A stretch of 64,000 bases of DNA from Sorghum bicolor (taxonomy: Eukaryota; Streptophyta; Magnoliopsida; Poales; Poaceae). A program made the position numbers and the translations under genes. Shown one piece after another: positions 15,084-37,962 of this stretch. Position 1 is the first letter of the stretch. Each line of letters starts with the position of its first letter. The notes beneath the pieces are model-generated. The model saw nothing but the letters and a program-made list of their open reading frames with translations, was not told the DNA's origin and did not search any database. The DNA lies in contig NC_012872.2 in assembly GCF_000003195.3 (NCBI RefSeq), positions 23,460,066-23,524,065 of the forward strand, written 5' to 3'.

Positions 15084-17669
15084 TGTAACAAAACTGACCA
15101 AATTATAAGAGATTAAGCCTAACAGCGACCATTTGCATAGTCAAACCATTAGGCTTAAGCCCATATAATCCCGGTAGTCCGTGAAATCTTGAAGGATTTC
15201 AAACCACACATCGTACAACAGCCAAGATCGTAATAAGTTTAGCGGTCGCCATCCACAAATACATCCAGATTACAACATTCATAAAACACATCGGAGTTCT
15301 AAAAATTATTACAAACCAAGTTCTTCAAGTAGCGGAAGCTTCAAAGTTCGAAAATACAACATACACTCTTAGTCTGATACAGTGCCATAGTTCGGTCATT
15401 CCCACAAAAGCAAAAGGAGAGACGGAGTGACCATCGCCCTTGGTCTAGTCATCACCCATGGCTGGGTACAGACAGAGGATGCAATAACCATAGTACATTT
15501 GACCATCTGCAAAACAACATGGGAGTAGAACCCTGAGTACGAGAAGGTACTCAGCTAGACTTACCCGTCATAAACTTAAAATAAAGACTCATCAAGGATC
15601 ATGAAGGCTATATAGTGGGGTAGCTGACAACCATTTTTGCAAAACCGCAGGATTTTACTATCATAACCTTCATAAGTCTTTCTTCTTTTAATTTGCTCAA
15701 GTTGAAAGTATCATTACCTATCATCTAGCTTTGCACCTGCACTATTACAAGCAAGTATAAGGCTATGATAGTACCTCATCATAGCATTCATAAACCATTT
15801 GTCATTATAACCCAAGTCTTCCCTAGTCCTTACTACGAGGACGAAGCTCATGTCAAGTGCTCACTATCCAGGAGTGATGACGATTCGAATCGATTTCTAA
15901 CCAGCTGGCGAGGTATTCCCCACACAAACCACACTCACTGATCAAGTGAGCTACAGATCACCGTATTACACTATCCAGGACCAATTCGTGGGTTCGGCAG
16001 GCACCGCCAGTACCCGAGGACCGTTCCGGCGACCGAGGTATCCAAGGTATACCAAGGTTGCGCGCCGCGCCCTCGTCGTTCTCCTAAACCATCACCAATA
16101 CAGCGCATGGCGGCTCGATTCCCGGCCCGGATAGTGTTCAGGCTTCGCGGTCGGAACGACTTATCCTTCCAGTTAAGTGTGGGGCATGCGTTCAACATGA
16201 CAAGAGGGCCGTCAACGATCGGTCCTTAATCGACGTAGGCAGGGGCACTATGGTCAACCCACCATAAGACCCTGCCCGGTCTCCAGTTACATTCCACACT
16301 TGGTTATTCTTTTCCCCAAGCAACCAAGGCTTAATCAAGCAGGTATCCACCTATTTCTCGCAGGTGACAGGAAATCACCCGACTTCTACCGGACTTAGCA
16401 AGCTAAGCATAGACTCCGTGCCTATCTACATAGGACAATGTAGGTGAACGAGTAGGGGTAACAAGGAGTGTATATGCATCAACGGTATCAATCAAATCCT
16501 ATCACTTAGATGCAATATAGTAGAACAATTATAGTGCATCATATAAGTTAGCGAGAATAGGGAGACTTAGAATGCTCTGGGGCTTGCCTTTCTCAAACGT
16601 GCTGGGTCGGTGATCCGGACACTCCTGCAGCTCCTCTCCGGGTTCCTGTGCTTCCGGAGGTTCCTGCTCCTGAATCTCCTCAGGTTCCTCGGGTCCCACT
16701 TCGTTCTCCTGCGTGCCTGTATGATGCATGTGTGCTTATGAGTGGAGTGCGAGATGCCCGAGTGGATGCTTGTATGAGAAAGTACCAAAGGAGTCATGAC
16801 ATGACGCATATGTAATGTACTCGGTCATGCTCATTACAAGGTAGTCCACATCATCCAAGAACAAACAATTGAATCAAACATCTATTGCATTCCCTTCTTT
16901 AAATATGTTTCAAATGCAACCAGCAACCCACATGATGCTTCAAAGATACACCAAACCCAACTTATTCTATTCAACCTATATATACAACGATTCATAATTT
17001 TCTTTATTCATTTCTAGGCCCATTAAAATTCACATGCAGTTCTGTTCATCAATAAATTCCACAAAAATTACAGGAGACTACCAGTCAAGCATAGAGTCTA
17101 CTGCAAAATTTTCATAATTTTTGGATACTTATTTTGAGCCACAAAAATCACAAGATTAATTCATAGGGTAAGTATAATTATTCTACTGTGATATAAGTGT
17201 CAAACAACAGATTTCATATTTTTACAATTTGTCTAACATCATAAGAAACACCCACAAAATTTTCCAGATTTATTGCATGATCCAATTAATTATTAAAAAT
17301 CATAAATCACTGCCATGCAAGCATTTAAATTACCATAAATTCATTTATACACCAAATAATATGTAGCAATATTTTCCCAGTGAGTAAACATACATGCAGA
17401 GCCAACAAATCAAGTTTCTCATTTTTCTGAACCATATTATATTTACTATGCATTTTCCAAGTTTAGCAAAAGCATGGATTAAATATATTCATTCAGAAAA
17501 GTTACTCAAACATGACATGCAATTACAACAAACTATAGATCTGGAAATATAGAGCACACCAAAATTTATTTCATCCAATTTGGAGCTGTAGAACTCAAGA
17601 TATAAATTTTACAAGTTTTGAATCAATTTCTAGAAATCATTTATTCAAGAAAACCGACGAAAAAGGCTA

Positions 17670-17674
17670 CGCGT
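17670..17674. repeat. target-site duplication CGCGT of element E (left)
   Basis: CGCGT flanks E on the left here and on the right at 26992-26996. The undisturbed right LTR of A reads CGCGC at the same place. Confidence 0.93.
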
Positions 17675-18907
17675 TGTTGATATTTGGGAACGCAATAAGG
17701 AATTGATCCACAAGCGCACGGATATCGGTGAGCATTTCACCCGGAAAATTATCCAGAGTATCGTATTTATTTTTTTACCACTAGGAGAAAGAGTGCATCT
17801 GACTAACCGGTCTATTACTACTAACCTTTAGGCACAAAGAATGTCTTTCGATGTGAGTGAAAAATAGAGAAGACTGCAACTGTAGTCTCCTTCTAACCTT
17901 GGTAAGGATGATCTACTGTTCTAATGGGGAGGCTAACGGAATCTAGACACCACAAAGGATGTTCGACCCGCACCTATAAACCCTATCCTTCCTGCTAACG
18001 AGATGTGATCTACAAAGGTAGCTCGGAAATGTCACGTTCCTCACTACTACCACGGTCCAGCTAGTCAGGGAATATCTATGAGTACCCCAGCCTAAACACC
18101 ACGTTTACGCCAGCAATGATTACTCTAAACTCTACGCGAAGAGATTAAAGTAAACTCATAAACCATAAGAACAATAAAACAAGAACTTACTAGAATTTAG
18201 AAGTCAAATTACTGAAGAATCCTAGGAGCAAGCTTCGGGTTAGGAGAACTTGATCCCGCAGGTACAAGCTTGGAGTAGACACCGACAGGCCGGGTTTCCT
18301 CCACTCTACACCTCCACTCTATATCTCTCAATCTAGTAGAAACTAGAAGATCTATTTCTACCTTACATTGATTGCTAAGCCTAAAAAGAAATATTAATTA
18401 GAGAAGAGGTTTTCCTTCGAGGGCACCCCTCAGTCTCTATGATAATTTCTTCATGTCTTCCAGGGGCCAGGGGGGCCTCGCTTATATAGTCCTCCCCTTC
18501 TATGCGTTTTTGGGTCGATAGCCGAGGTGGTACTATGTTTTTCTTGATCCAATAGGTCGGTGGAATATCCCGAGCGAAGGAGTCCTGAATTGGCTCCAGC
18601 AGGGGGGCGGGCGCCCAGGCTACCAGGGCGGGCGCCCTGGGCCTGGCCCAGCTTTGCCTCCGCTTCGGTCTCGTGGCTTCTGGAGTCTTCTAGATGATGT
18701 AAAATTGCGCGGTGCGTTGATATCTCTATGTAATCCTGACATGTGGGCCTTTCTTCCTTATTTCCTGATAACCCCCTGCAGAAATAGATAAACAACAAAA
18801 CTCGTGGAATTCTGTCAGATCAAACCCTAATTCTATGTGCTGGTTGCATATTGGTTCTTTCTTTTGTTTATTTGATAATTAAAATTGATACTTAAGAACC
18901 GTCAACA
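17675..18907 (-). mobile_element. 3' LTR of element E
   Basis: 1233 bp. On the minus strand it begins TGTTGACGGTTCTTAAGT and ends ATATCAACA. The minus-strand TATA (CTATATAAG) lies at 18482-18489, about 116 bp downstream of the paired GC sites at 18605-18637. An open frame at 18798-18451 lies across the promoter and is not considered a gene. Confidence 0.93.
18605..18637 (-). promoter_or_regulatory. paired GGGCGCCCGCCC module, 3' LTR of E
   Basis: Units at 18605-18616 and 18626-18637, 21 bp apart, both perfect. Spacer bases differ from those of B. Confidence 0.75.
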
Positions 18908-20201
18908 AATACCCCCATACTTAGGCTTTTACTCGTCCTCGAGAAAAGGATGGTTAAGAAAAATATCTGGGGTAAAACATTTTAAAGCATTTTATATTTG
19001 TAGGGTGTTAAAATTTCCACTGTGTACCATAGTCAGGGAAGTATATGATTAAGAGTAAAGATCCTTTCTTCTCAATCCTGTCACTTGGAGTTTTTGTATA
19101 TTTTTAAAAGAAAGTTAGCATACCTTTTTATCCTCATAGGTTCTCTCAGATCACTCATTATCTTTTATATATATCTCACTGATGTTGTTTTAATTTTGCA
19201 AGAATTCTCAAGCATACTTACTTTGCATTTATTGCCTGATCAAAACGGGATCCAAGGAGGGGAATGTCATACTCTTAGATCAAAGACTTTAAAAACTTTG
19301 TCAACTCTTGCTGGCATATTGCTTATTAGAGGGACCATGGGCTATCATATTTTTTTTTAAGTGGATACCGAGGTACCCCTAATTCTACTGCCGGACACTT
19401 GTCCATTTTTTCTGCGAGGTTGTCGAGCACTTGCTCCTTTTTATTTCCTCGAAATATCTTCTATTTTTGCATAGCCCATGCCTCTAATGCAATAATACTT
19501 CGAAAGAGTGAATCTTTCTGAAATAATGTCTTGATCTTGGGAGCATGATAAATCTCTCAACAAGGGTCTAACTTATTTTGAACAAACTCAATACAGAGCA
19601 GATAGCTTTTATAATCATAATTAATATTTCAGTTTTATCACGCATATAAAACACTGAGGATGGTAGCTAGGAATTTGAATATTTTGAAATAAATTCTCCA
19701 AGCAACAATGATATCAAGAATAAGAAACTTATACTCTATCATCACATATTCCATTTGACTTAAGTAACACAGGGTTTTAAAATGATTTTATAATAATTGC
19801 AAGTTTTCAGGAAATATCACAGATTGAGATTAATCATGATTAGAAATATTTTAATCTTTTTAATTTATCATGTCGGAAACAGTAATCTGCATAATCCAAA
19901 ATATGTGTAAAGTAAAGTGTGCAGAGTGTGTACCTGAATCGTGGAGTGGTGTAGTCGGAGTGTGTTTGGCATGTTGAGGGATCTCCCCCATACTTGTTTT
20001 CTGCTTTCTTGCACAAAAATAAAGTAGAGACACACAAAACATAATAATAATAATACTCTTTATTGATCTTGAGGCATTTATTACAAAAGACTGATAGCAA
20101 ACTGATAACAAACTGATAATAATAGCAAACTTATAAAAGCAAACTTAAACCGAATTTAAAGATAGATAAGATGTATTGCCTCAAGGTCTAATCTAGATAA
20201 C
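18908..20201 (-). other. 3' noncoding region of element E with palindromes and PPT-like tracts
   Basis: No convincing gene. It holds a purine-rich tract at the LTR edge (GTATGGGGGT, complement of 18910-18920), a second GTATGGGGGA at 19984-19993 and two palindromes: GGACACTTGTCC (19393-19404) and GAGCACTTGCTC (19425-19436). The stretch around 19370-19480 is homologous to the 3' noncoding region of B at about 38720-38900. A plus-strand frame at 19085-19360 is incidental. Confidence 0.65.
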
Positions 20202-20831
20202 TTAGCGGCGCTCTAATTCTTTGATCTTCTTGTTGGCACTGGCAAGATCCTGCCTAAGGCCTAGTATAACGGTGTTGTGGTTAGAGAGCTGCCTAGTGAG
20301 GGAATTAATCGAGGACTGGAGGTCTATGATAATTCTATCTAGCCTGCGAACTTCCTCATCAATATCCATTATAGTCTTGCGACGCTTGGGAGGTGTCTCA
20401 AAAGCATTGAGAGCGTGCTTCGGGGCTGCCTTTGGAGGGATAAAACGGACTTTGGCTGCTCTAATCCCTTCAAAGTAAGGCCTTTCCTCCTCCGTAGTGT
20501 AGCGAACGCTACTGATCTCGCCGCTCCGGTTGGTCTTGACTCCAACGACCCTCTCATTGGGTCTAGGTGGAAGGACTCTTGTGCCGATTGGCACCTTGAT
20601 AGTGGTCCTCGTCTTAGATGATGATCCTTTGAGGAGTAGGGGTTGTGGTGGTGCGGTGAGAACTGGTTGAGCATGGTAAGATTGGGCGGAGCCGCGTTGG
20701 CGTAATGGTATGGCTTCTAGCTGACGCTCTGTGTTGGCCGGGACGAGAGCACGGGCATCGGGGTCTCCCACTGGCTCCATGTTGAGGTTGAAGGGGACGA
20801 CTTCCCAATCATCGTGGTACTTCTCGGCCAT
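20202..20831 (-). CDS. extra ORF of element E: proline-rich, coiled-coil protein
   Basis: Complete 209-residue ORF in the env position, after pol and before the 3' LTR. The N-terminal two thirds are Pro/Arg-rich and probably disordered. PPKRRK at residues 147-152 is a likely nuclear localisation signal. Residues 156-209 form a heptad-patterned coiled coil (VRRLDRIIIDLQSSINSLTR). There is no signal peptide or transmembrane segment, so it is not a classical envelope. ATG at 20831 is the first Met; a minus-strand TATA (CTATATAAAC, 20939-20949) sits about 110 bp upstream, arguing for its own transcript. Function unknown; a nuclear or RNA-binding accessory is possible. It is unrelated by eye to the second ORF of B. 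Confidence 0.75.
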   Translation of the reverse strand: MAEKYHDDWEVVPFNLNMEPVGDPDARALVPANTERQLEAIPLRQRGSAQSYHAQPVLTAPPQPLLLKGSSSKTRTTIKVPIGTRVLPPRPNERVVGVKTNRSGEISSVRYTTEEERPYFEGIRAAKVRFIPPKAAPKHALNAFETPPKRRKTIMDIDEEVRRLDRIIIDLQSSINSLTRQLSNHNTVILGLRQDLASANKKIKELERR

Positions 20832-21232
20832 TGGAGTAGCAAGGAAATAAAATTTTAATTAAAGACGAGCTAATCAAGCTCTAATTGAAGGAGAGAAAGC
20901 TTGAGGGCTTGGTGTTTGAAAACTGTGGTCAGGGGTCTGTTTATATAGGGGTCAAAAGGGTGCCTCTATGGGTTGTTCGGGTTACTCCCGTCGACTTGCG
21001 TTGGAAACTTTCCATCCGAGGGATTATTCGGATCACCCTAAGTGCATTTTCCATAACAGAGAAAGTCGGGACCGAGGGGGAACAGGGGCAGGGCGCCCGC
21101 CCACTTGACCTGGGCGCCCGCCCTCTCTCTGGCCCCTCTGTGGGCCCACTTTTCCGAGCGTGTTTCTAGATGCGAAATTATTTAGAAAAATATATATATG
21201 ACCCAAAACCATCAGACCAAAAGTGTCGGGCT
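20832..21232 (-). promoter_or_regulatory. promoter region of the extra ORF of element E
   Basis: It contains a TATA (20939-20949, minus strand) and, about 145 bp further upstream, the paired GC units at 21091-21102 and 21112-21123 (21 bp apart). The pair is in the opposite orientation relative to E compared with the LTR copies. The plus-strand frame 20885-21169 crosses this region and is likely incidental. Confidence 0.6.
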
Positions 21233-24200
21233 CTAATTCTCTATGGGAAGGTAAAAATGGACTACATCTATTTCTTCAAATTCCTCATTGGGCTCTAAAA
21301 ATAATTTAAGACGTTGACCATTTACCTTGAATAACGTACCTTCGTTATTTTGAAGTGTGATAGCTCCGTGGGATGATGAATTGATTAACTTGAATGGTCC
21401 TTCCCATTTGCTCCGGAGTTTTCCATGCCCGAAAAGCTTCACCCTGGAATTAAAAAGTAATACCTTATCTCCGGGTGTGAACTCCTTCTTCTTGATTCTC
21501 TTGTCATGCCACCTCTTGACTCTTTCTTTGTAGATTTTTGAATTGTGATATGCCTTCTCTCGCCATTCTTCCAATTCTGATAATTGCATTCTTCTATAAT
21601 CTCCAGCAACATCTAGGTCCATATTCCATCTCTTTATGGCCCAGTGTGCTTTGAACTCTAGTTCAACAGGTAGATGGCAAGTCTTCCCGTACACCAATTG
21701 GTATGGAGACATTCCGATTGGGGTCTTATATGCTGTCCGGTATGCCCAGAGTGCATCGGGTAACTTGTCTTTCCACGCCGTTCCCATTTCATTTACTGTC
21801 TTCTGAAGAATATTCTTGATTTGTTTGTTGAAGTCTCTGCTTGGCCACTTGTCTGAGGATGATAAGGGGTAGCGACATTGTGACGGATTCCATGTCTTGA
21901 TAGATATTGCTTGAAACGTTTGTCGATGAAGTGTGCTCCTCCATCACTTATCACTACTCTGAGAACTCCAAATCTTGGAAATATAATTTCTTCAAACATC
22001 CTCTTTGAACTGACGTTGTCGGCATGCTTGCAAGGTAATGCTTCTACCCACTTGGAGACATAGTCAACCGCCACCAAGATGTACTCGCACTTCTTTGATG
22101 GAGGAAATGGACCCATGTAGTCTATTCCCCAGACATCAAAGAGCTCAATCTGAAGGTTGTTGGTGAGTGGCATTGCATCCCTTGTATTTATGTTTCCGTG
22201 CCTTTGACATGGCCCACATCTTCTGATATATTGCTTCGTGTCTTCATACAATGTAGGCCAATAGAATCCACACTGCCAGATCTTTGAATGTGTACGGAAT
22301 GCTCCATAATGACCTCCATATGGTGATAAATGACATCTGTCGATGATCTTCCATCCTTCCTCAGTGGTCACACATCTCCTGAGTAAGCCATCAGAGCATA
22401 CTCGGAAGAGGTATGGCTCATCCCATATATGTGAACGACTTTCTTGAGTAAGCTTCTTCTTGTTTGCTCCTGGTGGTACATACCCTGAAACCATAAAATT
22501 AACAATATCTGCATACCAAGGGTCAGACCTCTTAATCCCGTAGAGCATGTCGTCCCGGAGTGAATCATTGATAGGGGTTTCCTGTGGACTCTTAAAATAC
22601 ATTCTAGACAAGTGATCAGCAACAGAATTTTCTACTCCTTTTTTATCTTTTATTTCTAAGTCAAATTCTTGGAGTAATAAGATCCATCTAATCAGGCGAG
22701 GTTTAGCATCTTTTTTAGTGAGCAAATATTTTAATGCAGCATGATCAGTGTAAACAATTATTTTAGCTCCAACTAAATAAGATCTAAATTTATCAATGGC
22801 AAAGACAACAGCTAGAAGCTCTTTTTCAGTGGTTGCATAATAAAGTTGAGCTCCTGTCAAAGTTTTACTGGCATAAGCAATTGCATGATGCTTCTTACCT
22901 TTAGTTTGTCCCAATACTGCCCCCACAGCATAATCACTAGCATCACACATAATTTCAAAAGGCAACGACCAATCAGGGGGTTGAATGATTGGTGCAGAGA
23001 TGAGTGCTTTCTTTAATAAATTGAAAGATGTTAGACATGCATCATCAAATTCGAAAGGAGCATCCTTGGCTAGCAAAAGAGTAAGTGGTCTAGCAATAAA
23101 TGAAAAATCTTTTATGAATCTACGATAAAAACCAGCATGGCCAAGAAAGCTTCGAATTCCTTTTATATTCACAGGTGGAGGTAGCTGTTCAATTACTTCA
23201 ATTTTAGCTTTGTCTACCTCGATCCCTCTTTCAGACACTAAGTGTCCTAGCACTATTCCTTCTCTAACCATAAAATGACATTTTTCCCAATTAAGGATTA
23301 AGTGCTTTTCTTCACATCTTTGCAAAACCTTGTCTAAGTTTTCAAGACAACTATCAAAAGTTTTTCCATAAACAGAGAAATCATCCATGAAAACTTCCAT
23401 AATCTCTTCAATCATATCAGAAAATATAGACATCATGCATCTTTGAAAAGAAGCTGGTGCATTACATAACCCAAAAGACATTCTACGGTAAGCATAAGTT
23501 CCATATGGGCATGTAAAGGTGGTTTTGCTTTGATCATCAGGATGGATCGGGATTTGGTGATATCCTGAATATCCATCTAAGAAACAAAAGAATGAATGGT
23601 TTGCTAACCGCTCTAGCATCTCATCTATGAAAGGTAAAGGAAAGTGATCCTTTCTCGTGGCTTTGTTTAATTTTCTATAGTCTATGCACATCCGCCATCC
23701 TGTGACGGTGCGTTGCGGAATTAGCTCATTCTTTTCATTCATAATAACTGTCATGCCTCCATTTTTAGGCACAACTTGTACTGGGCTTACCCACTCACTG
23801 TGCGGCATAGGATATATAATCCCTGCATGCAGCAACTTTATAACTTCCTTTTTAACTACCTCTCTCATAGTGTTGTTAAGTCTACGTTGGGGTTCTCGAG
23901 AGGGTGTAACAGAAGGATCTGTTGGAATACGATGGGTACAAATCATAGGACTGATTCCTGTAAGGTCTTGAAGTGAGTAGCCGAAAACTGAGTGATGTTT
24001 CTCAAGAACGGTCTTTAATCGCAGAGTTTGATCCTGATTGAGTTTATCGCTAATGATCATAGGGAATTCTGGATTATTGTTTAGGAAAGCATAGGTAAGA
24101 CCGGGTGGTAAAGTTTTAAGCTCTATAGGGGGTCTAGGTGTTTCTGCAAACTCATCTAAGGGTTCAGGCTCGGAAGGTTCGTCTTCTTCTTCTGTGAAGA

Positions 24201-24522
24201 AAGGAGTTTCGTCTTCTAAGTCTGGTTCATCTAAAAGCTCTAGAGATGCAGCCTTTACTTCCTCCATAGGATCAGGCAAAAGATATGACTCGGCCTTATT
24301 ATTTAAGGAGTGTGAAATTATCATTGGGAATTGAAAAGTTTTTCCAAAAGAAATGTGTAGCTTTCCAGTATGACCTTCATAAAGGAGTCTTCTAAAAGGT
24401 TGTCCTATCAATAAGTCGAAGTCCCATGTATCAAAGATATAGAAGTTCAAATGAACCATGGAGCCTTCTACCGTAAGAGGTAGGACATTAATAATTCCAA
24501 GACTGGGGACTAATCGTCCCAA
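21233..24522 (-). pseudogene. pol of element E (protease part, RT, RNase H, integrase), one frameshift
   Basis: The first segment (24522-21793) holds, in order, the distal protease region (LLIGQP), RT with the catalytic block [11 protein letters not shown] and [17 protein letters not shown], RNase H ([14 protein letters not shown], then [11 protein letters not shown]), and the integrase zinc finger [15 protein letters not shown]...CGPCQRHG. The integrase core follows, with D in [10 protein letters not shown] in VISDGGAHF and E in GQAE. One missing A in an A-rich run near 21838 shifts the frame; the C-terminal integrase continues at 21787-21233 ([22 protein letters not shown]). All catalytic residues of RT, RNase H and integrase are present, so a sister copy could be active. 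Confidence 0.9.
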
Positions 24523-25625
24523 GAATCCTTTATGACCTTTGTTGTGGGGGTTAAGACAAGATTTTTAAATAGTTTAAGTGCAAAAGATTCAGACATAATG
24601 TTGATCCCCACAACAGGATTATAAAGAGCATTAAATCGATCAGAGTTATAAGCACAGCGTATAGTTATAGAGGGTGTGTCCAAACGGATCACATCAGAGG
24701 AAAGCTCTGATTCCTCCAACCATTCGCTACTCATCACTGAGATAAGCTCTCTCAATTGATATTCACTTGGTAAATAATTGCTAAACTGGCCGTTTTGGGG
24801 TTTGTCAATAGAATGGTAGTTTGAAATATTTCCAAAATCGGCAAAAAGATCGGATTCTATATCCAGCATGAAGTCCGGTACTGGAATTTCTTCCTCTTGT
24901 GGCTCAGAACTTGGGATAGCTAAAGTAGATGAAAAATTTGGCAGAGTGTCTACTTCGGCTTCGTAGGTTTCATCATGAAGGGTATTATCCATCTCAGCTT
25001 CTAGGATTCTATCTAGGATCACTCTAGCTTCATCAGCAGGGATGCGAAAGAAAGAACCTCTAGACATTGTGTGTAGCATTTGTTTGTGATTTTTATGAAG
25101 ACCTCGAAAAAAGTGAAATAAAAGAACAGGGTCTTCAAGATTAAGGTTTGGACCAGATTCTAAAAGATCAGAAAAACGTTTCCAGGATTTTCCCAAAGTT
25201 TCATTATCTTTTTGTTTAAAAGATAGGACTTCGAGTCTAAGGTCGGCTATACGGTCAAGGGAATAGAAATCTAGACAAAAGTTGGCTCGTAAAACTCCCC
25301 ATTCACCTTGTTGTTGACTTACCTTCTGACTGTACCATTGTCTAGCTTCTCCCTTTAGAGAAAAAGGAAAAAGCTTCCAACGTAAAGTCTTATCAGAAAT
25401 GCCTTCAATGCGAAGACAATCACATGTTTGCTCAAAATCTCTAATATGAAGGTAAGGGTTTTCGTCTTCCTTTCCCGAAAAATATAGGTTTCGAATCATG
25501 GCAATCAACCTAGAACTTAACTTATACTGGGATGTTTGGATAGGCTGTGATGATTCCCATGGTAAAAGGTCAGTTGCTAAAGGGATTACAGACTCATGGA
25601 TCGATTTAGAATTTTGGTTTTCCAT
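24510..25625 (-). CDS. gag with start of protease region, element E
   Basis: The start is taken as ATG at 25625 (MENQNSKS), because upstream residues in the same frame are a hydrophobic translation of leader sequence. The capsid core carries [18 protein letters not shown], typical of Athila/Ty3 Gag. No CCHC knuckle is found. The C-terminal end enters the protease region, but where D-T/S-G is expected the sequence reads LYNPVVGIN, so no catalytic Asp is visible. The frame ends at 24510 and pol continues in another frame overlapping by 13 nt. This is either a single-base mutation or recoding; a mutation is more likely. Confidence 0.82.
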
Positions 25626-25732
25626 AAGGTAAGAATAAAGAAAAATAAATAAAGAATATATAAGATAAGAAAAGATAAAAGTATAGATACAAGCTAATAG
25701 CAAGACATAGGTTATCTCAGCAACCGTCTTTC

Positions 25733-25750
25733 TCCCCGGCAACGGCGCCA
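25733..25750 (-). other. primer-binding site, tRNA-Asp type (element E)
   Basis: Minus strand TGGCGCCGTTGCCGGGGA, 8 nt from the LTR edge at 25759, with the same spacer octamer AGCATTTC as B and B'. Confidence 0.88.
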
Positions 25751-25758
25751 GAAATGCT

Positions 25759-26991
25759 TGTTGATATTTGGGAACGCAATAAGGAATTGATCCGCAAGCG
25801 CACGGATATCGGTGAGCATTTCACCCGGGAAATTATCCAGAGTATCGTATTTATTTTTTTACCACTAGGAGAAAGAGTGCATCTGACTAACCGGTCTATT
25901 ACTACTAACCTTTAGGCACAAAGAATGTCTTTCGATGTGAGTGATAAATAGAGAAGACTGCAACTGTAGTCTCCTTCTAACCTTGGTAAGGATGATCTAC
26001 TGTTCTAATGGGGAGGCTAACGGAATCTAGACACCACAAAGGATGTTCGACCCGCACCTATAAACCCTATCCTTCCTGCTAACGAGATGTGATCTACAAA
26101 GGTAGCTCGGAAATGTCACGTTCCTCACTACTACCACGGTCCAGCTAGTCAGGGAATATCTATGAGTACCCCAGCCTAAACACCACGTTTACGCCAGCAA
26201 TGATTACTCTAAACTCTACGCGAAGAGATTAAAGTAAACTCATAAACCATAAGAACAATAAAACAAGAACTTACTAGAATTTAGAAGTCGAATTACTGAA
26301 GAATCCTAGGAGCAAGCTTCGGGTTAGGAGAACTTGATCCCGCAGGTACAAGCTTGGAGTAGACACCGACAGGCCGGGTTTCCTCCACTCTACACCTCCA
26401 CTCTATATCTCTCAATCTAGTAGAAACTAGAAGATCTATTTCTACCTTACATTGATTGCTAAGCCTAAAAAGAAATATTAATTAGAGAAGAGGTTTTCCT
26501 TCGAGGGCACCCCTCAGTCTCTATGATAATTTCTTCATGTCTTCCAGGGGCCAGGGGGGCCTCGCTTATATAGTCCTCCCCTTCTATGCGTTTTTGGGTC
26601 GATAGCCGAGGTGGTACTATGTTTTTCTTAATCCAATAGGTCGGTGGAATATCCCGAGCGAAGGAGTCCTGAATTGGCTCCAGCAGGGGGGCGGGCGCCC
26701 AGGCTACCAGGGCGGGCGCCCTGGGCCTGGCCCAACTTCGCCTCCGCTTCGGTCTCGTGGCTTCTGGAGTCTTCTAGATGATGTAAAATTGCGCGGTGCG
26801 TTGATATCTCTATGTAATCCTGACATGTGGGCCTTTCTTCCTTATTTCCTGATAACCCCCTGCAGAAATAGATAAACAACAAAACTCGTGGAATTCTGTC
26901 AGATCAAACCCTAATTCTATGTGCTGGTTGCATATTGGTCCTTTCTTTTGTTTATTTGATAATTAAAATTGATACTTAAGAACCGTCAACA
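25759..26991 (-). mobile_element. 5' LTR of element E
   Basis: 1233 bp, same length as the 3' LTR. Differences noticed include positions equivalent to CCACAAGC/CCGCAAGC, GTGAAAAA/GTGATAAA and CTTTGCC/CTTCGCC. The paired GC units are at 26689-26700 and 26710-26721. Confidence 0.93.
26689..26721 (-). promoter_or_regulatory. paired GGGCGCCCGCCC module, 5' LTR of E
   Basis: Two perfect units 21 bp apart on the minus strand, about 116 bp upstream of the LTR TATA near 26566. Confidence 0.75.
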
Positions 26992-26996
26992 CGCGT

Positions 26997-27850
26997 ACCC
27001 AGATCTACACCCACCGGGGTCCCCTTGCGACTGACAGTGGGTCCCCGACCCCACCGGTCAGCGAGACCGAGAGGGAGCTCACCTCCGACGAGCAGATCTC
27101 GCCGGCGGTGAGGTCTCCGGTCACGGGGTAAGCACCAACGTGCTCCCCGCAGCGAGGCGCACCCAACGGTACCCTTGGATTGGCCGGAGGATGACCGGAA
27201 CACCTCCGACGAGCAAGCATGGCGGCACGGCGGCGCTGCTCGCCGTGGCCAGGCCGCTCCGGTGCGGTAGAGCGTGCGCAAACGGCTCTCCGAGCTTCCT
27301 CACCACCCTACCGACATAGCGCACCCAAGAAACAGCGAAATGAGGCAGAGAAACACAAGATCCGTCGCGGCGGAGCACTCCGGCGAGCTCGGGGTAACTC
27401 CGGCGAGCGATTCACGGCGCTCGACGGACTCTCACCTTGGTAGAACGCGCACACAAGCTTACCCTAACGATGGCGAAGGCGCTGGTGCTCTCGGCGGTGA
27501 GCTTGAGGCTCTGGTGCGGTCGGCGGCGAGCGGCGGGGCTTTCTCCGGCAATGGCGCGCGGAGGAGCTGCTGTTGCTGCGCGGTGCGAGCGGAGGGAGGA
27601 AGGAGAAGGAGGGCGCGGGGGACAGAACAGAGGAAATGGCCTGGGAGCCTGAGCCGGCATCCCGACCAGGGGGGGTTGGAGGCCGGCCGCGGCGCGTCCA
27701 ACGCCGGCGTACGGCCGCCACGTGGCCGGCGCTGGGTGGAGCGAGGCACGTCCGCGCGCGCGGGAGAGAGGGGAAGGGGGAGCAGGCCGGGCCGCTCGCT
27801 GGGCCGAAAGGGGAGCGGGGTTGGCCCAGCAGCGCCTGCCCCTTTCCCTT
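26997..27850 (-). other. CpG-rich gene-like segment of LTR A (left copy)
   Basis: Strongly GC- and CpG-rich block with many overlapping open frames on both strands and GTGGGTCCCC-type motifs typical of grass gene leaders. The same block is at about 36640-37490 in the right LTR, and a diverged one is in LTR D (55010-55800). No frame shows a known domain, so I do not call a gene. Confidence 0.55.
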
Positions 27851-28332
27851 TTTTTTGAATTTCTTTTCTCCAAATTCTTTCTAAATTCATTTGGACCAAT
27901 TTAAAATCACTTTCACCTCTTGCTCCCAAAAACAAAGTTGTTCCAAAACAAAAACTCTACAACTTTGCTTTAATAAGCAAGACCAAATTCCAACTAGAAT
28001 TTGAATTGCAAATTAAAACTTAGCTCTAGGTTTTTAAATAAATTCAATTTGGAAATCTTGTATAAATTCCATTTCTCAAATTCCATAGCTCCAAAATTTA
28101 CACAAAAATACTCTAAATTCTTCTTACACATAAATCAACCTAGTTTGAATATTTTACATTTTTAGAAGCAAGCATCATATGTTTAACATAATTAAAACAC
28201 ATGAAATAAAGCACATAAAATCATGTTTTGGGATGAATGACATGCTCATGATGCTATGCTTGATGAGAATGCTTATGCATGTTGTGATAGGGCTAAATGC
28301 ATGCTTAAGACCTAGGGTGTTACAGCCCTTCC

Positions 28333-31300
28333 TTAGGGAAATCTCGTCCCGAGATTTTGGGTTACTAACCATTTCTTATGAAATTTTGGATAAACTGTTT
28401 TCAAGTAATCCTCTGTTTCCCAGGTGGCATCCCTATCGTCATGATGACTCCACACCACCTTATATGTTCTGACAATTCTGTTTCGTGTTACCCGTTCCTT
28501 GGTATCCACAATTCCCACTGGTTGCTCCTTATACTCTAAGTCTGCTTTTATTTTGATCCCTCGAGGTTCAATTCTTTGCTCAGGTACTTTCAAACATTTC
28601 CGCAGTGGCGACACATGGAAGACCGGAAAGATCGAGCTCAACTCTTCAGGTAACTGGATCTTGTAGGCCACGGGGCCTTACCTCTCCAGTATTTGGTACG
28701 GTCCCACATACCTGGGTGCAAGCTTGCTTCGAACTCGGAAACGTTGGACTTTCTTCATTGGCGTAACCTTGAGGTACACATAGTCACCTACTTTGAATTC
28801 AAGTGGCCTTCTTCTCTTATCAGCATAACTCTTTTGTCGTGATTGCGCTGCTTGCATATGCTGCTGTATGATTTGCACCTTCTTCTCAGCCTCATTCACG
28901 AAGTCGATACCATAGTATCTTCTCTCACCAGGTTCAACCCAGTTTAACGGAGTTCTACATCTCCGACCATACAAAGCCTCGAACGGGGCCATCTTGATGC
29001 TCTCTTGATAACTGTTATTGTAGGAGAATTCAGCCAGAGGTAACCATGATTCCCATGATCCCTTGGACGATAGCACACAGGCCCTCAGCATATCTTCTAA
29101 CACTTGTTTTAGCCTCTCCGTTTGGCCTGAAGTATGGGGATGATACACCGTGCTTCTTATCAGACTGGTCCCCAAATTCTTATGCATCCGCTCCCAGAAG
29201 TGAGCGGTGAACTGTGGTCCTCTATCTGATGTGATGGTCTTGGGAATGCCATGCAACTTGACAATCTCAGCCATCTTGCATCAACACACACCCCAGGCCA
29301 CTCTTCGATGCGTCGTAAAACACATCAAAAGGCTTTTCGATATTAGGTTGGGCCAGAACGGGAGCAGTGGTTAGCAACTTTCGCAAGGTGCGGAAGGCTA
29401 ACTCACACCCTTCCGTCCAGACAAACTTATGGTCCTTTTGTAGCAAACTTGTCATTGGCTTGGCAATCTTGGAGAAGTCAGGTATGAATCGGCGATAATA
29501 CCCGGCCAGACCAAGAAAACTTCTAACTTCCGAGATAGAAGTTGGTGGCTTCCAGTCCATGACTTCCTGCACTTTTGACGGATCCACAGCAATCCCTTCT
29601 TCAGACAGAATGTGTCCTAGGAAAGGAACTTTCTTCAACCAGAGCTCACACTTGCTGAACTTGGCATATAACTGATGCTCTCGTAATCGTGTCAGCACGA
29701 TTCTCAGATGCTCGGTGTGATCTTGCTCATTTTCTGAATAAACCAGAATATCATCGATAAACACCACAACAAACTTATCCAATTCTGGCATAAAGACTGA
29801 ATTCATCAGGTACATGAAGTATGCAGGAGCATTCGTCAATCCAAAGGACATGACAAGATACTCGTACAACCCATATCTGGTGGAAAAAGCAGTCTTTGGG
29901 ATATCTTGCGGACGAATCTTGATTTGGTGATACCCAGACCTCAAATCTATCTTAGAAAACACTTTTGCCTTGGACAACTGATCAAACAGGATATCAATCC
30001 TTGGCAAAGGATACTTATTCTTAATTGTCACTGCATCGAGTGGACGATAGTCCACGCACATGCGCAATGACTGATCCTTCCTTTTCAGAAACAACGCTGG
30101 ACAACCCCATTCCGACGAGCTTGGCCGGATGAACCCTTTATCCAGTAACTCTTTTAGTTGATTCTTCAACTCAGCGAGTTCGTTTGGTGGCATCCGGTAC
30201 GGCCTTCTAGATATTGGTGCTGTACCCGGTATCAACTCGATTGCAAACTCTACTTCCCTATCTGGGGGAAGTCCTCGTAATTCCTCAGGGAAAACATCAG
30301 GGAACTCACAGACTACTGGGATCTGTGGTAATGGAACCACGTGCGTAGCACAAGAGATGCTAGCAAAGTCAAGACGATGGGGCAGAGGTACTTGAAAAGA
30401 GGTGCTGCCCTGTGGTTCTCTGAGAGATAACATCCTCTTCCCAGTATCTATGACAGCATCCCATTCTCTCATCCAGTTCATGCCCATGATAACATCCAAA
30501 ACTAACCCAGGCATGACCACTAGATTTACCCTAAAAACTCGGCCACTTATATCCAGGGTTGCCCCTCGGACCACTCTATTGGTCAACACATCTGCCCCTG
30601 CTGAGCTGATGCGGTAGCCATAAACCGGATGTGTAACTAGTTGACTATGCTTTTGTGCAAATGCTTGGCTCGTGAACGAATGCGATGATCTAGAATCAAA
30701 CAAAACAACTGCGAGATGTTGGTTGACAGGAAACATACCAGCTGTTACCGGTTCTCCTTCCGGGATCTCCTCGATCGAGGTATGGTGCACACGAGCTGGA
30801 TAGGTTGGCTGCTGCCTCTTGGGGTAGGGACATTCCTTAGCGAAGTGCCCCATCTTGTGGCAGTTATAGCACGGACCCTTGGGCGCATTGTTGACGGCAG
30901 GTGCTGCAGCTTGAATTGCCTTTGGCTTGGCAGGGGCTATTGCCACTTTGTACGGTTTCTGCTGTGTTGGATGCCCGATGTTCCTTCTCTGCGGCGGTCG
31001 GAACCTAGCACCTGGGGCAGGAGGATGATACTGCGGTCGCCCTGTCACGGGTGCCCTGGACTGGGATGATCCGGCTTCAAAAGCCCTCTTACGTGACTTG
31101 GATGCACTGTAGTTGTTGTTATTGTTCTCTTGGGTGAGACAGTCACTAATGTAAGCATTGAAGGTAGCCCTGGCCCCTGTACCCATGGTCTTCAGCATCT
31201 TTGGATTCAAGCCCCTCTGGAAACTAGCAATCTTCTTAGCCTCCATGTTTACAAATTCAGGGGCATAGCGAGCGAGATTATTGAAAGCATGTAGATACTC

Positions 31301-31897
31301 CTTCATCGATTTCGTCCCCTGGGACAGCCTCATGAACTCCCCAACCTTCATTTCAACCACACCCGGAGGAATGTAATTTCCCCAGAAAGCTGTGGTGAAA
31401 CGGTTCCAGGTAATTGGGGTCCCCTCTGGGTAGGTGGTACGGTGATGGGACCACCAAATCCCAGCGGGTCCTTGCAACTGATGTGCCGCATACTCAGCCT
31501 TAAGTTCTTCTGTCATTCGGAGAAGACGAAACTTCTACTCCATGGTGTTGATCCACTCATCTGCCTCAAGCGGTTCCAAAGCCTCTTTGAAGATTGGTGG
31601 CTTGGTATCCATGAAGTCCTTGAACGAACTGTACTGGTTGACCTCTCAGCCACCCTGATTATCCCCACGACGGGTGTTGTCAGCTATGTTGCGCAGAGCT
31701 TCTTCCATGTTGCGCTGCATCTATTCCATGTTGCGTTGGCTCCCCAGAAGCTGTGCGAAAAACACGTCCGCAGTGTACGGAGGAGGCGGTGGTGGTGGCG
31801 GTGTTGGTGCTCTGTCCTCATTCCGTTGAGCCCCACCTCCGGACGTTCCTGCTCCAAGGCCCGGATTGTTGTTACCCCCGCCACGTGTTTACACCAT
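28333..31897 (-). pseudogene. gag-pol of element A (Tekay chromovirus), multiply broken
   Basis: Gag starts at ATG 31897. Stops occur at 31889-31891, 31721-31723, 31646-31648 and 31535-31537, all explicable by C-to-T changes. The long open part (31516-29267) has a capsid region, the zinc knuckle [14 protein letters not shown], a protease with DSR in place of DSG, and RT with YRRFIPDF and [10 protein letters not shown]. After the block [20 protein letters not shown] it jumps near 29277 straight to the second half of integrase ([21 protein letters not shown]), so RNase H, the HHCC finger and the first catalytic Asp are gone. After a stop at 28678, the C-terminus (28671-28333) carries a chromodomain-like segment (VTRNRIVRTYKVVWSHHDDRD) as in Tekay elements. 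It cannot encode a working polyprotein. Confidence 0.93.
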
Positions 31898-32219: not shown

Positions 32220-33263
32220 CTACTCGCTATGATCACTATCCATGCCGGAGCCATCCTCATCCTCATCTGCACTAGAAGCTGCTCCTATCGCGGGATCCGC
32301 ATCCATCTCGTCCTCAAAGTCTAGCTCAGCTGCTCCAGGCAGGTGGTGAGGGTGGAGCTGGTTATGCAGCTGGTGGATCTCCTCATGCAAGTTCTCATTG
32401 TACTCCTCGGCATTAGCTAGCTGCTGCTCTAGCTCTAGCTGTCGGGCCCTCAAAGTGTCCTCCTCGTACCAGGCTTCATTCCTCTGACCAAGCACATGGA
32501 CTAGCATGCGCTCGCAGTTCCTGTGAGCAGTAGTCACCCTATCCTTCTGCTCCCGCACTGCAAGCAGGTCCTGACTCAGCTCACTGTTCTTCTGGACTGC
32601 CTGATCTCTCTCTGTGGTCACACGGGCCAACTCTGCCTGCAGCCTCTCAACCTCTGAGTCAAACTCATGCTGCAACTGACGCTTCTCATCCTGGACGGTG
32701 AGAAGAGACCTGAACAAGCGACCCAAACAACGCTCCAGGCCTCCATAGGTCTTCATCAAGGCGTACATGGCACTCATAGCTGCGCTGTCACTGTGCTGGT
32801 CCTCATCCGCACTCCTCTCTAGAGCATTCACCTCGGACTGATCCCACACTGAAGTGTAGGGGTCACCCCGGGGAAACACCCCAGCGAAGGCGTGGGCCAG
32901 CTCCTGTGGAAACCTCTCCATGAGGTCCCTCAGAACTGCGAAAGCTGCCCTGCTGGCACCATGGAAAGGCGTGACACCTCGGGACTCGTACACCCAGCCG
33001 CCCCAAGCAGGGTCTCCTCCACTGGTAGGGACAACTGCCTCGATCCCCACCAGGGTCTCGTCACCAAGCGGCTCCTTATCCCAATAGTAGCGAGGCTCCC
33101 TTTCTTCGGGATACCCCATCGAACTGAGCACCCTCCAAAGCAAAGTGGGCATCCCAAACTCCTCCAGGAACTTGCTCTTATGCCGCGAGCTCCTAGCTGC
33201 CAACGGATGGCGAGGGGCCCGCCCACCAGTGGACTTGCGAGCGGTGAGCCTAGTGCGTGCCAT
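32220..33263 (-). CDS. upstream accessory ORF of element A: histone-H3-tail-like N-terminus, coiled coil, acidic tail
   Basis: Complete 347-codon ORF between the primer site and gag, in sense. The start is ATG at 33263 (an in-frame TTG three codons upstream is ignored). Residues 2-18 read ARTRLTARKSTGGRAPR; aligned to histone H3, 16 of the first 21 residues after Met are identical. Lys9, Ser10 and Thr11 are kept, while Lys4, 14, 18, 23 and 27 are R, R, H, R and H. Residues about 33-118 look globular (helix, strands, then GASRAAFAVLRDLMERF), loosely like a double-stranded-RNA-binding fold. Residues about 189-306 are coiled coil and 311-347 strongly acidic (SADEDEDGSGMDSD). There is no histone fold. 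It is intact although gag-pol of the same element has at least five stops and a large deletion. Role unknown; an H3K9-tail mimic acting with the element's chromodomain or on host silencing is an inference. Confidence 0.85.
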   Translation of the reverse strand: MARTRLTARKSTGGRAPRHPLAARSSRHKSKFLEEFGMPTLLWRVLSSMGYPEEREPRYYWDKEPLGDETLVGIEAVVPTSGGDPAWGGWVYESRGVTPFHGASRAAFAVLRDLMERFPQELAHAFAGVFPRGDPYTSVWDQSEVNALERSADEDQHSDSAAMSAMYALMKTYGGLERCLGRLFRSLLTVQDEKRQLQHEFDSEVERLQAELARVTTERDQAVQKNSELSQDLLAVREQKDRVTTAHRNCERMLVHVLGQRNEAWYEEDTLRARQLELEQQLANAEEYNENLHEEIHQLHNQLHPHHLPGAAELDFEDEMDADPAIGAASSADEDEDGSGMDSDHSE

Positions 33264-34083
33264 CTGTTGCAAATGGAATACCGTGGGTAAGAGCGAGGAT
33301 TACCTTTAATTATTTTATTTAGAATTGGGACAGATTAAATTAAGGGGGAAAGTAAGCAATGATATGAAATGAACATGATGCATGCACGAACTTACGATCT
33401 CACAAACTTAGAAACAAGGTTAACACTAAGCGGTATATGCGGTGGCACACAACGTTCTCTTATAACGTAACTAGCGTTCTAAGCGAGAACGTGGTTAGTG
33501 TACCTGCAGAAAACTCATTTCAGCCCACCCACAGTATGACCGTGCAGAACAAGAATTTAAAACTATGCACTCCACATACACGGACACCCGTCCATGCATC
33601 TGACGTGTCACTACCCACATCATCGCCCTAATGACGGCATCGCCTCTCAGGATGGAATTCCCAACATGCGGTACTGTTTCCAAGACACACCAAAGCATGT
33701 GTGCATGACACAGTACCTAACAACACTTCCCTAGACCGGCAGTGTATCCGATCATGCTCTCACAGCTCCCACTTACCATGGCGTAGAGGAAAAATGGATC
33801 CATACATTACCACTCAAATGAATGGTACTCATACTATTGCACGCCGTATGAGCGACGAAATAAAAATATGATGCATTAACCCCCAAGTCAGTACTTAGCT
33901 AGCCACCTTAGAGTCCTTAACTGGGCATAAAGGATATGACCGTGGCACACTAAATAGTTTCCCAAAACTTAGTTTAACACCTTGATCATTATTAATTAAT
34001 AAAATCCTTTATTAGACCGGTTTAGATTTTGTTTAGAACGTACTTATGAACAGTAACTCGCTAAACCTTGCTCCGATGCCAGC
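33264..34083 (-). other. leader of element A with hairpin and primer-binding site
   Basis: About 820 bp without a credible gene. The minus-strand TGGCATCGGAGCAAGG at 34081-34066 is an imperfect match to the tRNA-iMet primer site used by Tekay elements. At 33452-33492, ACGTTCTC and GAGAACGT form a stem. A tighter alternative, CGTTCT-AAGCG-AGAACG at 33475-33491, is nested inside. Confidence 0.6.
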
Positions 34084-37000
34084 TGTAACAGAACCGACCA
34101 AATTATAAGAGATTAAGCCTAACAGCGACCATTTGCATAGTCAAACCATCAGGCTTAAGCCCATATAATCCTGGTAGTCCGTGAAATCTCGAAGGATTTC
34201 AAACCACACATCGTACAACACCCAAGATCGTAATAAGTTTAGCGGTCGCCATCCACAAATACATCCAGATTACAACATTCATAAAACACATCGGAGTTCT
34301 AAAAATTATTACAAACCAAGTTCTTCAAGTAGCGGAAGCTTCATAGTTCGAAAATACAAAACACACTCTTAGTCTGATACAGTGCCACAGTTCGGTCATT
34401 CCCACAAAAGCAAAAGGAGAGACGGAGTGACCATCGCCCTTGGTCTAGTCATCACCCATGGCTGGGTACAGACAGAGGATGCAATAACCATAGTACATTT
34501 GACCATCTGCAAAACAACATGGGAGTAGAACCCTGAGTACGAGAAGGTACTCAGCTAGACTTACCCGTCATAAACTTAAAATAAAGACTCATCAAGGATC
34601 ATGAAGGCTATATAGTGGGGTAGCTGACAACCATTTTTGCAAAACCGCAGGATTTTACTATCATAACCTTCATAAGTCTTTCTTCTTTTAATTTGGTCAA
34701 GTTGAAAGTATCATTACCTATCATCTAGGTTTGCACCTGCACTATTACAAGCAAGTATAAGGCTATGATAGTACCTCATCATAGCATTCATAAACCATTT
34801 GTCATTATAACCCAAGTGTTCCCTAGTCCTTACTACGAGGACGAAGCTCATGTCAAGTGCTCACTATCCAGGAGTGATGGCGATTTGAATCGATTTCTAA
34901 CCAGCTGGCGAGGTATTCCCCACACAAACCACACTCACTGATCAAGTGAGCTACAGATCACCGTATTACACTATCCAGGACCAATTCGCGGGTTCGGCAG
35001 GCACCGCCAGTACCCGAGGACCGTTCCGGCGACTGAGGTATCCAAGGTATACCAAGGTTGCGCGCCGCGCCCTCGTCGTTCTCCTCAACCATCACCAATA
35101 CAGCGCATGGCGGCTCGATTCCCGACCCGGATAGTGTTCAGGCTTCGCGGTCGGAACGACTTATCCTTCCAGCTAAGTGTGGGGCATGCGTTCAACATGA
35201 CAAGAGGGCCGTCAACGATGGGTCCTTAATCGACGCAGGCAGGGGCACTATGGTCAACCCATCATAAGACCCTGCCTGGTCTCCAGTTGCATTCCACACT
35301 TGGTTATTCTTTTCCCCAAGCAACCAATGCTTAATCAAGCAAGTATCCACCTATTTCTCGCAAGTGATAGGAAATCACCCGACTTCTACCGGACTAAGCA
35401 AGCTAAGCATAGACTCTGTGCCTATCTACATAGGACAAGGTAGGTGAACGAGTAGGGGTGACAAGGAGTATATATGCATCAACGGTATCAATCAAATCCT
35501 ATCACTTAGATGCAATATAGTAGAACAATTATAGCGCATCATATAAGTTAGCGAGAATAGGGAGACTTAGAATGCTCCGGGGCTTGCCTTTCTCAAACGT
35601 GCTGGGTCGGTGATCCGGACACTCCTGCAGCTCCTCTCCGGGTTCCTGTGCTTCCGGAGGTTCCTGCTCCTGAATCTCCTCGGGTTCCTCGGGTCCCACT
35701 TCGTTCTCCTGCGTGCCTGTATGATGCATGTGTGCTTATGAGTGGAGTGCGAGATACCCGAGTGGATGCTTGTATGAGAAAGAATGTACTCGGTCATGCT
35801 CATTACAAGGTAGTCCACATCATCCAAGAACAAACAATTGAATCAAACATCTATTGCATTCCCTTCTTTAAATATGTTTCAAATGCAACCAGCAACCCAC
35901 ATGATGCTTCAAAGATACACCAAACCCAACTTATTCTATTCAACCTATATATACAACGATTCATAATTTTCTTTATTCATTTCTAGGCCCATTAAAATTC
36001 ACATGCAGTTCTGTTCATCAATAAATTCCACAAAAATTACAGGAGACTACCAGTCAAGCATAGAGTCTACTGTAAATTTTTCATAATTTTTGGATACTTA
36101 TTTTGAGCCACAAAAATCACAAGATTAATTCATAGGGTAAGTATAATTATTCTACTGTGATATAAGTGTCAAACAACAGATTTCATATTTTTACAATTTG
36201 TCTAACATCATAAGAAACACCCACAAAATTTTCCAGATTTATTGCATGATCCAATTAATTATTAAAAATCATAAATCACTGCCATGCAAGCATTTAAATT
36301 ACCATAAATTCATTTATACACCAAATAATATGTAGCAATATTTTCCCAGTGAGTAAACATACATGCAGAGCCAACAAATCAAGTTTCTCATTTTTCTGAA
36401 CCATATTTTATTTACTATGCATTTTCCAAGTTTAGCAAAAACATGGATTAAATATATTCATTCAGAAAAGTTACTCAAACATGACATGCAATTACAACAA
36501 ACTGTAGATCTAGAAATATAGAGCACACTAAAATTTATTTTATCCAATTTGGAGCTGTAGAACTCAAGATATAAATTTTACAAGTTTTGAATCAATTTCT
36601 GGAAATCATTTATTCAAGAAAACCGACGAAAAAGGCTACGCGCACCCAGATCTACACCCACCGGGGTCCCCTTGCGACTGATAGTGGGTCCCCGACCCCA
36701 CCGGTCAGCGAGACCGAGAGGGAGCTCACCTCCGACGAGCAGATCTCGCCAGCGGTGAGGTCACCGGTCACGGGGTAAGCACCAACGTGCTCTCCGCAGC
36801 GAGGCGCACCCAACGGTACCCTTGGATTGGCCGGAGGATGACCGGAACACCTCCGACGAGCATGCATGGCGGCGCTGCTCGCCGTGGCCAGGCCGCTCCG
36901 GTGCGGTAGAGCGTGCGCAAACGGCTCTCCGAGCTTCCTCACCACCCTACCAACCTAGCGCACCTAAGAACCAGCGAAATGAGGCAGAGAAACACAAGAT

Positions 37001-37962
37001 CCGTCGCGGCGGAGCACTCCGGCGAGCTCGGAGTAACTCCGGCAAGCGATTCACGACGCTCGACGGACTCTCACCTCGGTAGAACGCGCGCACAAGCTTA
37101 CCCTAACGATGGCGAAGGCGCTGGTGCTCTCGGCGGTGAGCTTGAGGCTCTGGTGCGGTTGGCGGCGAGCGGCGGGGCTTTCTCCGGCAATGGCGTGCGG
37201 AGGAGTTGCTGCTGCTGCGCGGTGCGAGCGGAGGGAGGAAGGAGAAGGAGGGCGCGGGGGAGAGAACCGAGGAAATGACCTGGGAGCCTGAGCCGGCGTC
37301 CCGACCAAGGGGGGTTGGAGGCCGGTCGCGGCGCGTCCAACGCCGGCGTACGGCCGCCACGTGGCCGGCGCCGGGTGGAGCGAGGTGCGTCCGCGTGCGT
37401 GGGAGAGAGGGGAAGGGGGAGAAGGCCGGGCCGCTCGCTGGGCCGAAAGGGGAGCGGGGTTGGCCCAGCAGCGCCTGCCCCTTTCCCTTTTTTTTAATTT
37501 CTTTTCTCCAAATTCTTTCTAAATTCATTTGGACCAATTTAAATTCACTTTCACCTCTTGCTCCCAAAAATAAAGTTGTTCCAAAACAAAAACTCTACAA
37601 CTTTGCTTTAATAAGCAAGACCAAATTCCAACTAGAATTTGAATTGCAAATTAAAACTTAGTTCTAGGTTTTTAAATAAATTCAATTTGGAAATCTTGTA
37701 TAAATTCCATTTCTCAAATTCCATAGCTCCAAAATTTACACAAAAATACTCTAAATTCTTCTTACACATAAATCAACCTAGTTTGAATATTTTACATTTT
37801 TAGAAGCAAGCATCATATTTTTAACATAATTGAAACATATGAAATAAAGCACATAAAATCATGTTTTGGGATGAATGACATGCTCATGATGCTATGCTTG
37901 ATGAGAATGCTTATGCTTGTTGTGATAGGGCTAAATGCATGCTTAACACCTAGGGTGTTACA
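34084..37962 (-). mobile_element. right (5') LTR of element A
   Basis: 3879 bp, uninterrupted. On the minus strand it begins TGTAACACCCTAGG and ends TTCTGTTACA. It contains the CpG-rich block (36640-37490), a conserved palindromic block near 34880 (one base changed here), and a conserved short acidic frame (35729-35529) shared with LTR D. Confidence 0.93.

Follow-up and report, generated by a model that had tools for sequence, protein, structure and literature searches.

Introduction

Lysine 9 of histone H3 is the site that hosts mark to silence transposable elements of the kind described here. Histone mimics such as influenza NS1, SARS-CoV-2 ORF8, and the self-methylation site of G9a are short motifs, and the anti-silencing proteins known as VANCs belong to DNA transposons. 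VANCs are sequence-specific and are encoded by Arabidopsis VANDAL elements (PMC10398659, PMC5735166). In the same plant, KYP and SUVH5/6 write H3K9me2, CMT2/3 recognise it, and SHH1 captures it for RdDM, while ADCP1/AGDP1, whose mechanism resembles that of the SHH1 SAWADEE domain, reads H3K9me2 in combination with a K4 that is unmethylated (PMC7218100). LTR retrotransposons, which fill much of grass genomes, have to escape H3K9me2- and siRNA-based silencing for long enough to amplify.

Some grass LTR retrotransposons carry an accessory reading frame, ORF0. The Retrosat2 family, in which it was described, comprises Retrosat2, RIRE3, RIRE8, FRetro3, ZMsat2, Sorsat2, and Brasat2 (Gao et al. 2012, PMC3485330). 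According to the same article, ORF0 occurs in grasses only and evolves fast, the Sorsat2 and Retrosat2 versions being ~10% similar; metabolic-enzyme functions were proposed for it from homology models, and the word "histone" is absent from the main text (PMC3485330). Here, we describe an ORF0 whose protein begins with a copy of the histone H3 tail. Judged from its sequence, the protein may act as a nuclear decoy for the host writers and readers of H3K9 methylation, a reading that we prefer but put forward tentatively.

Structure of the element and assignment of ORF0

The window, i.e., the whole 64,000-nucleotide stretch of Sorghum bicolor DNA that was analysed, contains a minus-strand LTR retrotransposon that extends from 37962 to 15084, as established by comparison of the window with itself and from the sequence at the joins (Table 1). 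The pentamer CGCAT is duplicated just outside both element ends. At the commonly used grass rate, the divergence of the LTRs presumably corresponds to roughly a million years. An earlier layout with a 1.3-kb LTR and a 3.4-kb leader was dropped once the match taken for a leader turned out to be the remainder of an LTR that a nested element divides. The window copy looks dead, since an early stop codon interrupts its gag and part of pol has been deleted internally, yet its ORF0 is open. The gag start is open in most other copies examined. The nested element contains gag-pol-like ORFs on the same strand, as well as a 209-aa ORF (20202-20831) whose Pfam matches are weak and of the coiled-coil type.

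Table 1. Features of the element and of its ORF0 protein, in window coordinates
Feature	Position	Strand	Remarks
5' LTR, 3879 bp, TGTAACAC...TGTTACA	34084..37962	(-)	self-comparison
PBS-like TGGCATCGGAGC	34081-34070	(-)	follows 5' LTR
Splice-acceptor-like stretch directly before ATG	33264..33278	(-)	CATTTGCAACAG in window; CATTTGCAGCAG in most of 59 distinct copies
ORF0-type accessory gene, 347 aa	32220..33263	(-)	first ORF after 5' LTR, same strand as gag-pol
Histone H3-like N-terminal tail, residues 1-31 (H3-like part 2-22)	33171..33263	(-)	net charge +10, predicted disordered
dsRBD-fold domain, residues 36-118, alpha-beta-beta-beta-alpha	32910..33158	(-)	structure model; net charge -4, no KKxAK-type lysines
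Long helix / coiled coil, residues 159-303	32355..32789	(-)	predicted; mean pLDDT 90-98 over residues 181 to 300
Disordered acidic C-terminal tail, residues 304-347	32223..32354	(-)	predicted; net charge -15, ends MDSDHSE
gag-pol	28325..31897	(-)	gag, protease, RT, chromodomain-like C-terminus recognisable; gag start directly after GCAG
3' LTR, first part	26991..28324	(-)	96.4% identical to 5' LTR, 1334 columns; interrupted by another LTR element
Second LTR element, nested in 3' LTR	17674-26991	gag-pol-like ORFs (-)	LTRs 1234 bp, 99.35% identical; ACGCG both sides
3' LTR, second part	15084..17673	(-)	97.0% identical to 5' LTR, 2590 columns; beyond nested element

The ORF lies ~820 nt from the 5' LTR, is the first long ORF after it, and precedes gag-pol on the same strand. 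Its place and the features of the LTR mark the protein as the ORF0 of a Retrosat2/Sorsat2-like Tekay chromovirus. With the Retrosat2 family, which has a sorghum member, the element shares the extra ORF upstream of gag-pol, an LTR of more than 3 kb, and a similar start of the LTR, which is TGTAACACCC in the window element and, in the published description, TGTCACACCC in Retrosat2 and RIRE8 (PMC3485330).

The N-terminus of the protein matches the histone H3 tail

Translation of the minus strand from the ATG at 33263 to the stop codon at 32220-32222 gave the 347-residue protein, labelled P0001, that the sequence-only reading had claimed. After Met it reads ARTRLTARKSTGGRAPRHPLAARSSRHK, which is identical to H3 residues 1-21 at 16 of 21 positions in the native N-terminal register. 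Relative to H3, the changes K4R, K14R, K18H, K23R, and K27H are present and K9-S10-T11 is retained, exactly as had been read from the letters. Two further lysines, Lys28 and Lys30 in H3 numbering, stand just beyond the H3-like part.

In a phmmer search of 177,635 PDB sequences, the top matches were H3 peptides (E 5.7e-4, query residues 1-24), and when residues 2-31 were shuffled 300,000 times, the best score was 10/21. The likeness of the tail to H3 thus exceeds chance. The same register recurs in divergent relatives, which, together with these scores, makes it very improbable that the resemblance is accidental or convergent and has neither an H3 origin nor a function. The register and the length of the identity point to capture of an H3 gene as the likely origin of the tail. 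A histone-fold protein was also considered and rejected: the H3 matches (the best 60 of 132) end by residue 32, no histone family was found in Pfam, and the fold modelled after the tail is a dsRBD followed by a long helix.

The tail is retained in relatives outside the sorghum genome

Protein searches yielded 42 relatives, and 239 for a short form (120 listed), nearly all of them from metagenome-type sources; P0043 is labelled Miscanthus floridulus. We examined 148 proteins, namely the window's own, the 42, and another 105 taken from the 120 listed. The H3-like tail was present in 40 of these: P0001, a second long form (P0012), and 38 short forms, which lack the dsRBD-like domain and pass straight from the tail into the coiled coil. 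Thus, the tail travels with the coil. In the other 108 proteins the predicted start lies further in, several times at the internal Met38; these are uninformative on the tail, and families that lack it may therefore exist. A query of residues 1-50 alone returned six candidates and two matches and missed even P0012, and three pattern matches in the viral contigs scanned for relatives were not confirmed.

P0012 is 52% identical to the window protein at 88% coverage and carries the tail with Lys9. Identity between P0001 and P0012 is 17/21 in residues 2-22 and 7/13, 47/83, 22/40, 66/137, and 12/30 in the segments that follow. Of the charged H3 residues, R2 occurs in 29 of the 38 short forms, K4 in 37, R8 in 30, K9 in 37, and R17 in 20, and of the uncharged ones, A1 in 37, T3 in 35, A7 in 36, S10 in 37, G12 in 34, G13 in 38, A15 in 34, P16 in 37, L20 in 38, and A21 in 37; T6 is kept in 35, T11 in 7, Q19 in 10, and Q5 in none. 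Seven positions between A1 and S10 are therefore kept in 35-37 of the 38, and positions 13, 14 (as Arg), and 20 are invariant. Many of the Arg losses would fit the decay of methylated CpG. Position 18 is His in 36 of the 38 short forms, and the Arg14 and His18 that short and long forms have in common point to one origin of the tail.

The sequence-only reading had described the tail as having Lys9 as its sole H3 lysine. This holds for the H3-like part of the window tail and fails for the wider family, 37 of the 38 short forms having Lys4. Lys4 is changed in the window lineage and in P0012, both of which are long forms, and since the relatives retain it, the supposed refinement to Lys9 alone is a trait of the lineage. 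The broader claim, that the accessory protein of a retrotransposon starts like H3, is supported, and Lys9 is kept nearly wherever a check was possible: in P0012, in 37 of the 38 short forms, and in every distinct copy from the element's own genome (below).

Selection on copies in the own genome

In the genome of the window, 117 ORF matches were scored out of 3278 first-look candidates, and 99 of the 117 had no in-frame stop; the window's match aside, they are 95-97% identical to the window ORF. From 80 loci fetched, 59 distinct ORFs remained after identical cut-outs were dropped, the window's included, and the pN/pS values and tree counts are based on 58 of them, L061 being omitted for its internal deletion. 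Position 9 is Lys in all 59 tails, with both Lys codons in use, and position 4 is Arg in 58 and Lys in L065. A search of the same genome for short forms (150 of 3257 candidates scored) found none, and the one match that started from query residue 1 was L061. This locus (C4:27028300-27029300) is an internally deleted long form. It has an open frame of 173 codons in which the tail and the first part of the dsRBD-like domain run straight into the second half of the coil, and it resembles the short form found elsewhere.

Over the 58 ORFs, pN/pS was 0.13 when the whole ORF was counted; it was 0.24 in residues 2-31 and 0.55 in residues 2-22, the latter with a low pS. Parsimony on the tree placed 180 synonymous and 62 nonsynonymous changes of the whole ORF on internal branches (0.16 relative to opportunity). 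For residues 2-22, the counts were small, four synonymous and seven nonsynonymous (dN/dS 0.89), and four of the seven were His18/Arg18 changes. Terminal branches gave 0.36 for the whole ORF, a value that includes decay after insertion. Thus, the ORF as a whole was under purifying selection while the family spread, as the pN/pS of 0.13 also supports; for the tail, such selection is not shown at this shallow depth. The codon-level check that the sequence-only reading had proposed for the tail gave a divided answer, with a ratio not far below one on internal branches and with the tail as the best conserved segment in the comparison with P0012. Residues His18 and Arg18 alternate, with several changes on the tree, and Arg is found in eight of the 59 distinct copies (L011, L012, L013, L014, L021, L029, L064, and L067).

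These data bear on a rival explanation, that the tail derives from H3 and is now just a short basic peptide used in nuclear import, RNA or DNA binding, or capsid packaging, Lys9 being kept by chance or for its charge. The replacement of K14, K18, K23, and K27 by Arg or His, which keeps the positive charge (net +10 for the tail), is consistent with it, as are the recurrent His18-Arg18 changes and a tail dN/dS that is not clearly low at shallow depth. However, the uncharged H3 residues listed above are kept as well as the charged ones in the short forms, and a simple basic patch would need neither these residues nor the exact N-terminal register. We consider this explanation possible, if doubtful.

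Predicted structure of the body of the protein

Structure predictions were made from alignments of 20 and 15 hand-chosen sequences. The sequence-only reading had foreseen a body that lacks a histone fold and consists of a globular part, a coiled coil, and an acidic tail, and the models agree with it, the globular part being a predicted dsRBD fold. Plant dsRBDs of DRB7.2, DCL4, DRB3, DCL3, and HYL1 were among the structure matches to the modelled domain, and the closest were dsRBDs solved with protein partners (DRB7.2, DCL4). In a viral structure library, matches were weak, and several of them were to annotated dsRBD proteins. At the sequence level, Pfam gave no family above the curated cut-off for the whole 347-aa protein, the seven families returned for P0001 did not include a dsRBD family, and a search with the dsRBD-like domain of one member gave no profile match at E up to 10. 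By hand alignment, the sequence TPFHGASRAAF in P0001 (TPxEGAxRAAF in relatives) stands where the last helix begins and where lysines of the KKxAK type would be expected; these lysines, the usual dsRBD RNA-binding motif, are absent. The domain is thus like the plant dsRBD proteins DRB7.2, DRB4, and DCL4 in predicted fold, and unlike them in having neither a sequence-level match nor, by this alignment, the RNA-binding lysines. Several divergent long forms (P0001-P0003, P0006, P0010, and P0016) share DSDH(S/D)E as the end of the acidic C-terminus (32223-32260).

The published ORF0 proteins were described as enzyme-like by homology modelling (PMC3485330), whereas the window ORF0 combines an H3 tail, a predicted dsRBD fold, and a coiled coil. 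We have set aside the enzyme assignments of Gao et al., given the modelled dsRBD fold and the Pfam result for the whole protein.

The matches to plant dsRBDs could mean that the dsRBD-like domain and the coil carry the main activity, interference with small-RNA proteins or packaging of RNA, and that the tail is an accessory localisation signal. This would leave unexplained the 38 short forms that keep the tail and have no such domain, and the net charge of the domain (-4) and the missing lysines also argue against it; we give it little credence. On the other hand, the absence of RNA-binding lysines and the kinship of the closest models to domains solved with protein partners leave room for a second arm of the protein that would bind DCL/DRB proteins.

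A proposed decoy model for the H3-like tail

We return to the reading that we tentatively prefer, in which ORF0 would occupy host H3K9 writers and readers. The initiator Met is expected to be removed before Ala, by an established rule. Its removal would present Ala1-Arg2-Thr3 and A7-R8-K9-S10 as they are presented in H3. The long helix could assemble the protein into an oligomer displaying several tails, whose Lys9 would be methylated or bound by host writers of the KYP/SUVH type and by readers of the CMT2/3, ADCP1, or SHH1 type. With these proteins occupied, silencing would be blunted during expression of the element. In long forms, the dsRBD-like domain might add the second arm, so that a two-armed inhibitor, with the H3K9 tail mimic directed against SUVH/CMT/ADCP1/SHH1 and the dsRBD against DCL/DRB proteins, would hit both the H3K9-directed and the RNA-directed silencing loops and would have been carried across divergent relatives. 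We regard this extended version as rather unlikely.

In favour of the decoy model are the 16/21 identity to H3 starting from exactly residue 1, the retention of the tail in the divergent long form P0012 and in the 38 short forms, Lys9 in all 59 own-genome tails, the whole-ORF pN/pS of 0.13, the modelled dsRBD fold, and the existence of host readers that take H3K9me2 with unmethylated K4. The 108 of 148 proteins in which no tail is visible count against it. Against it also stands the ratio of nonsynonymous to synonymous changes in the tail on internal branches (7:4, or 0.89), compared with 0.16 for the whole ORF, as does the pN/pS of 0.55 for residues 2-22. The reader-contact residues R2 and R8 are kept in just 29 and 30 of the 38 short forms and are not the best-kept positions, and Q5, which H3K9 readers contact, is kept in none of the 38. 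In the window lineage, Arg4 cannot carry Lys4 methylation, and the K4R change may spoil recognition by readers that depend on both K4 and K9.

A partner other than the host's proteins was suggested by the sequence-only reading, namely the chromodomain of the element's own integrase, which the tail would dock or help to steer to H3K9-marked chromatin. The same element does encode a chromodomain-like C-terminus, and one element RNA would yield both proteins. This C-terminus aligns to the chromodomains of Clr4 and CDY, and its third cage position is His, compared with Tyr in Clr4; the first was read by hand. By this reading, the first and third aromatic cage residues are missing, which makes docking through methyl-Lys9 unlikely, and the whole alternative is in our view improbable. 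Plant type II chromodomains are described as lacking the first and third cage aromatics, and their partner is reported not to have been found (PMC6317226, PMC3350952).

The proposed decoy can be set beside two kinds of known protein. Like the mimics NS1, ORF8, and G9a, ORF0 is a non-histone protein with a linear copy of the H3 tail that surrounds a modifiable lysine; it differs in the length of the copy (~20 residues), in its native N-terminal register, and in its location in a plant LTR retrotransposon. Like the VANCs, it is a transposon-encoded accessory protein with an anti-silencing role, which for ORF0 is a proposal, but the portions of the VANC reports drawn on here mention no histone tail (PMC10398659, PMC5735166). 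ORF0 as an accessory ORF and histone mimicry in viruses and host proteins are already known. In literature searches capped at 8-20 papers each, no title or abstract opening reports a plant retrotransposon ORF with a histone tail or a dsRBD fold. An H3K9-type tail beside a dsRBD-like fold provides a specific functional hypothesis for ORF0 of the Retrosat2 type and, if true, would place plant retrotransposons beside viruses and host proteins as users of histone mimicry.

Leader sequence and possible expression of ORF0

The leader (33264-34084) contains 20 upstream ATGs in the window, which would hinder scanning. Across 56 loci with 35 distinct leader ends, the acceptor-like CATTTGCAGCAG before the ORF0 ATG is for the most part conserved, the window copy having CAACAG, and donor-like sites lie at about -243 and -514. 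TATGCAG precedes the gag ATG in 26 of 27 distinct copies. Both ATGs thus directly follow AG, which suggests alternative splicing, and from sequence it is a reasonable inference that a single RNA could be spliced to either ORF0 or gag. In many short forms, the upstream frame reads ...FLLQ before Met, which is compatible with an acceptor ending in CAG.
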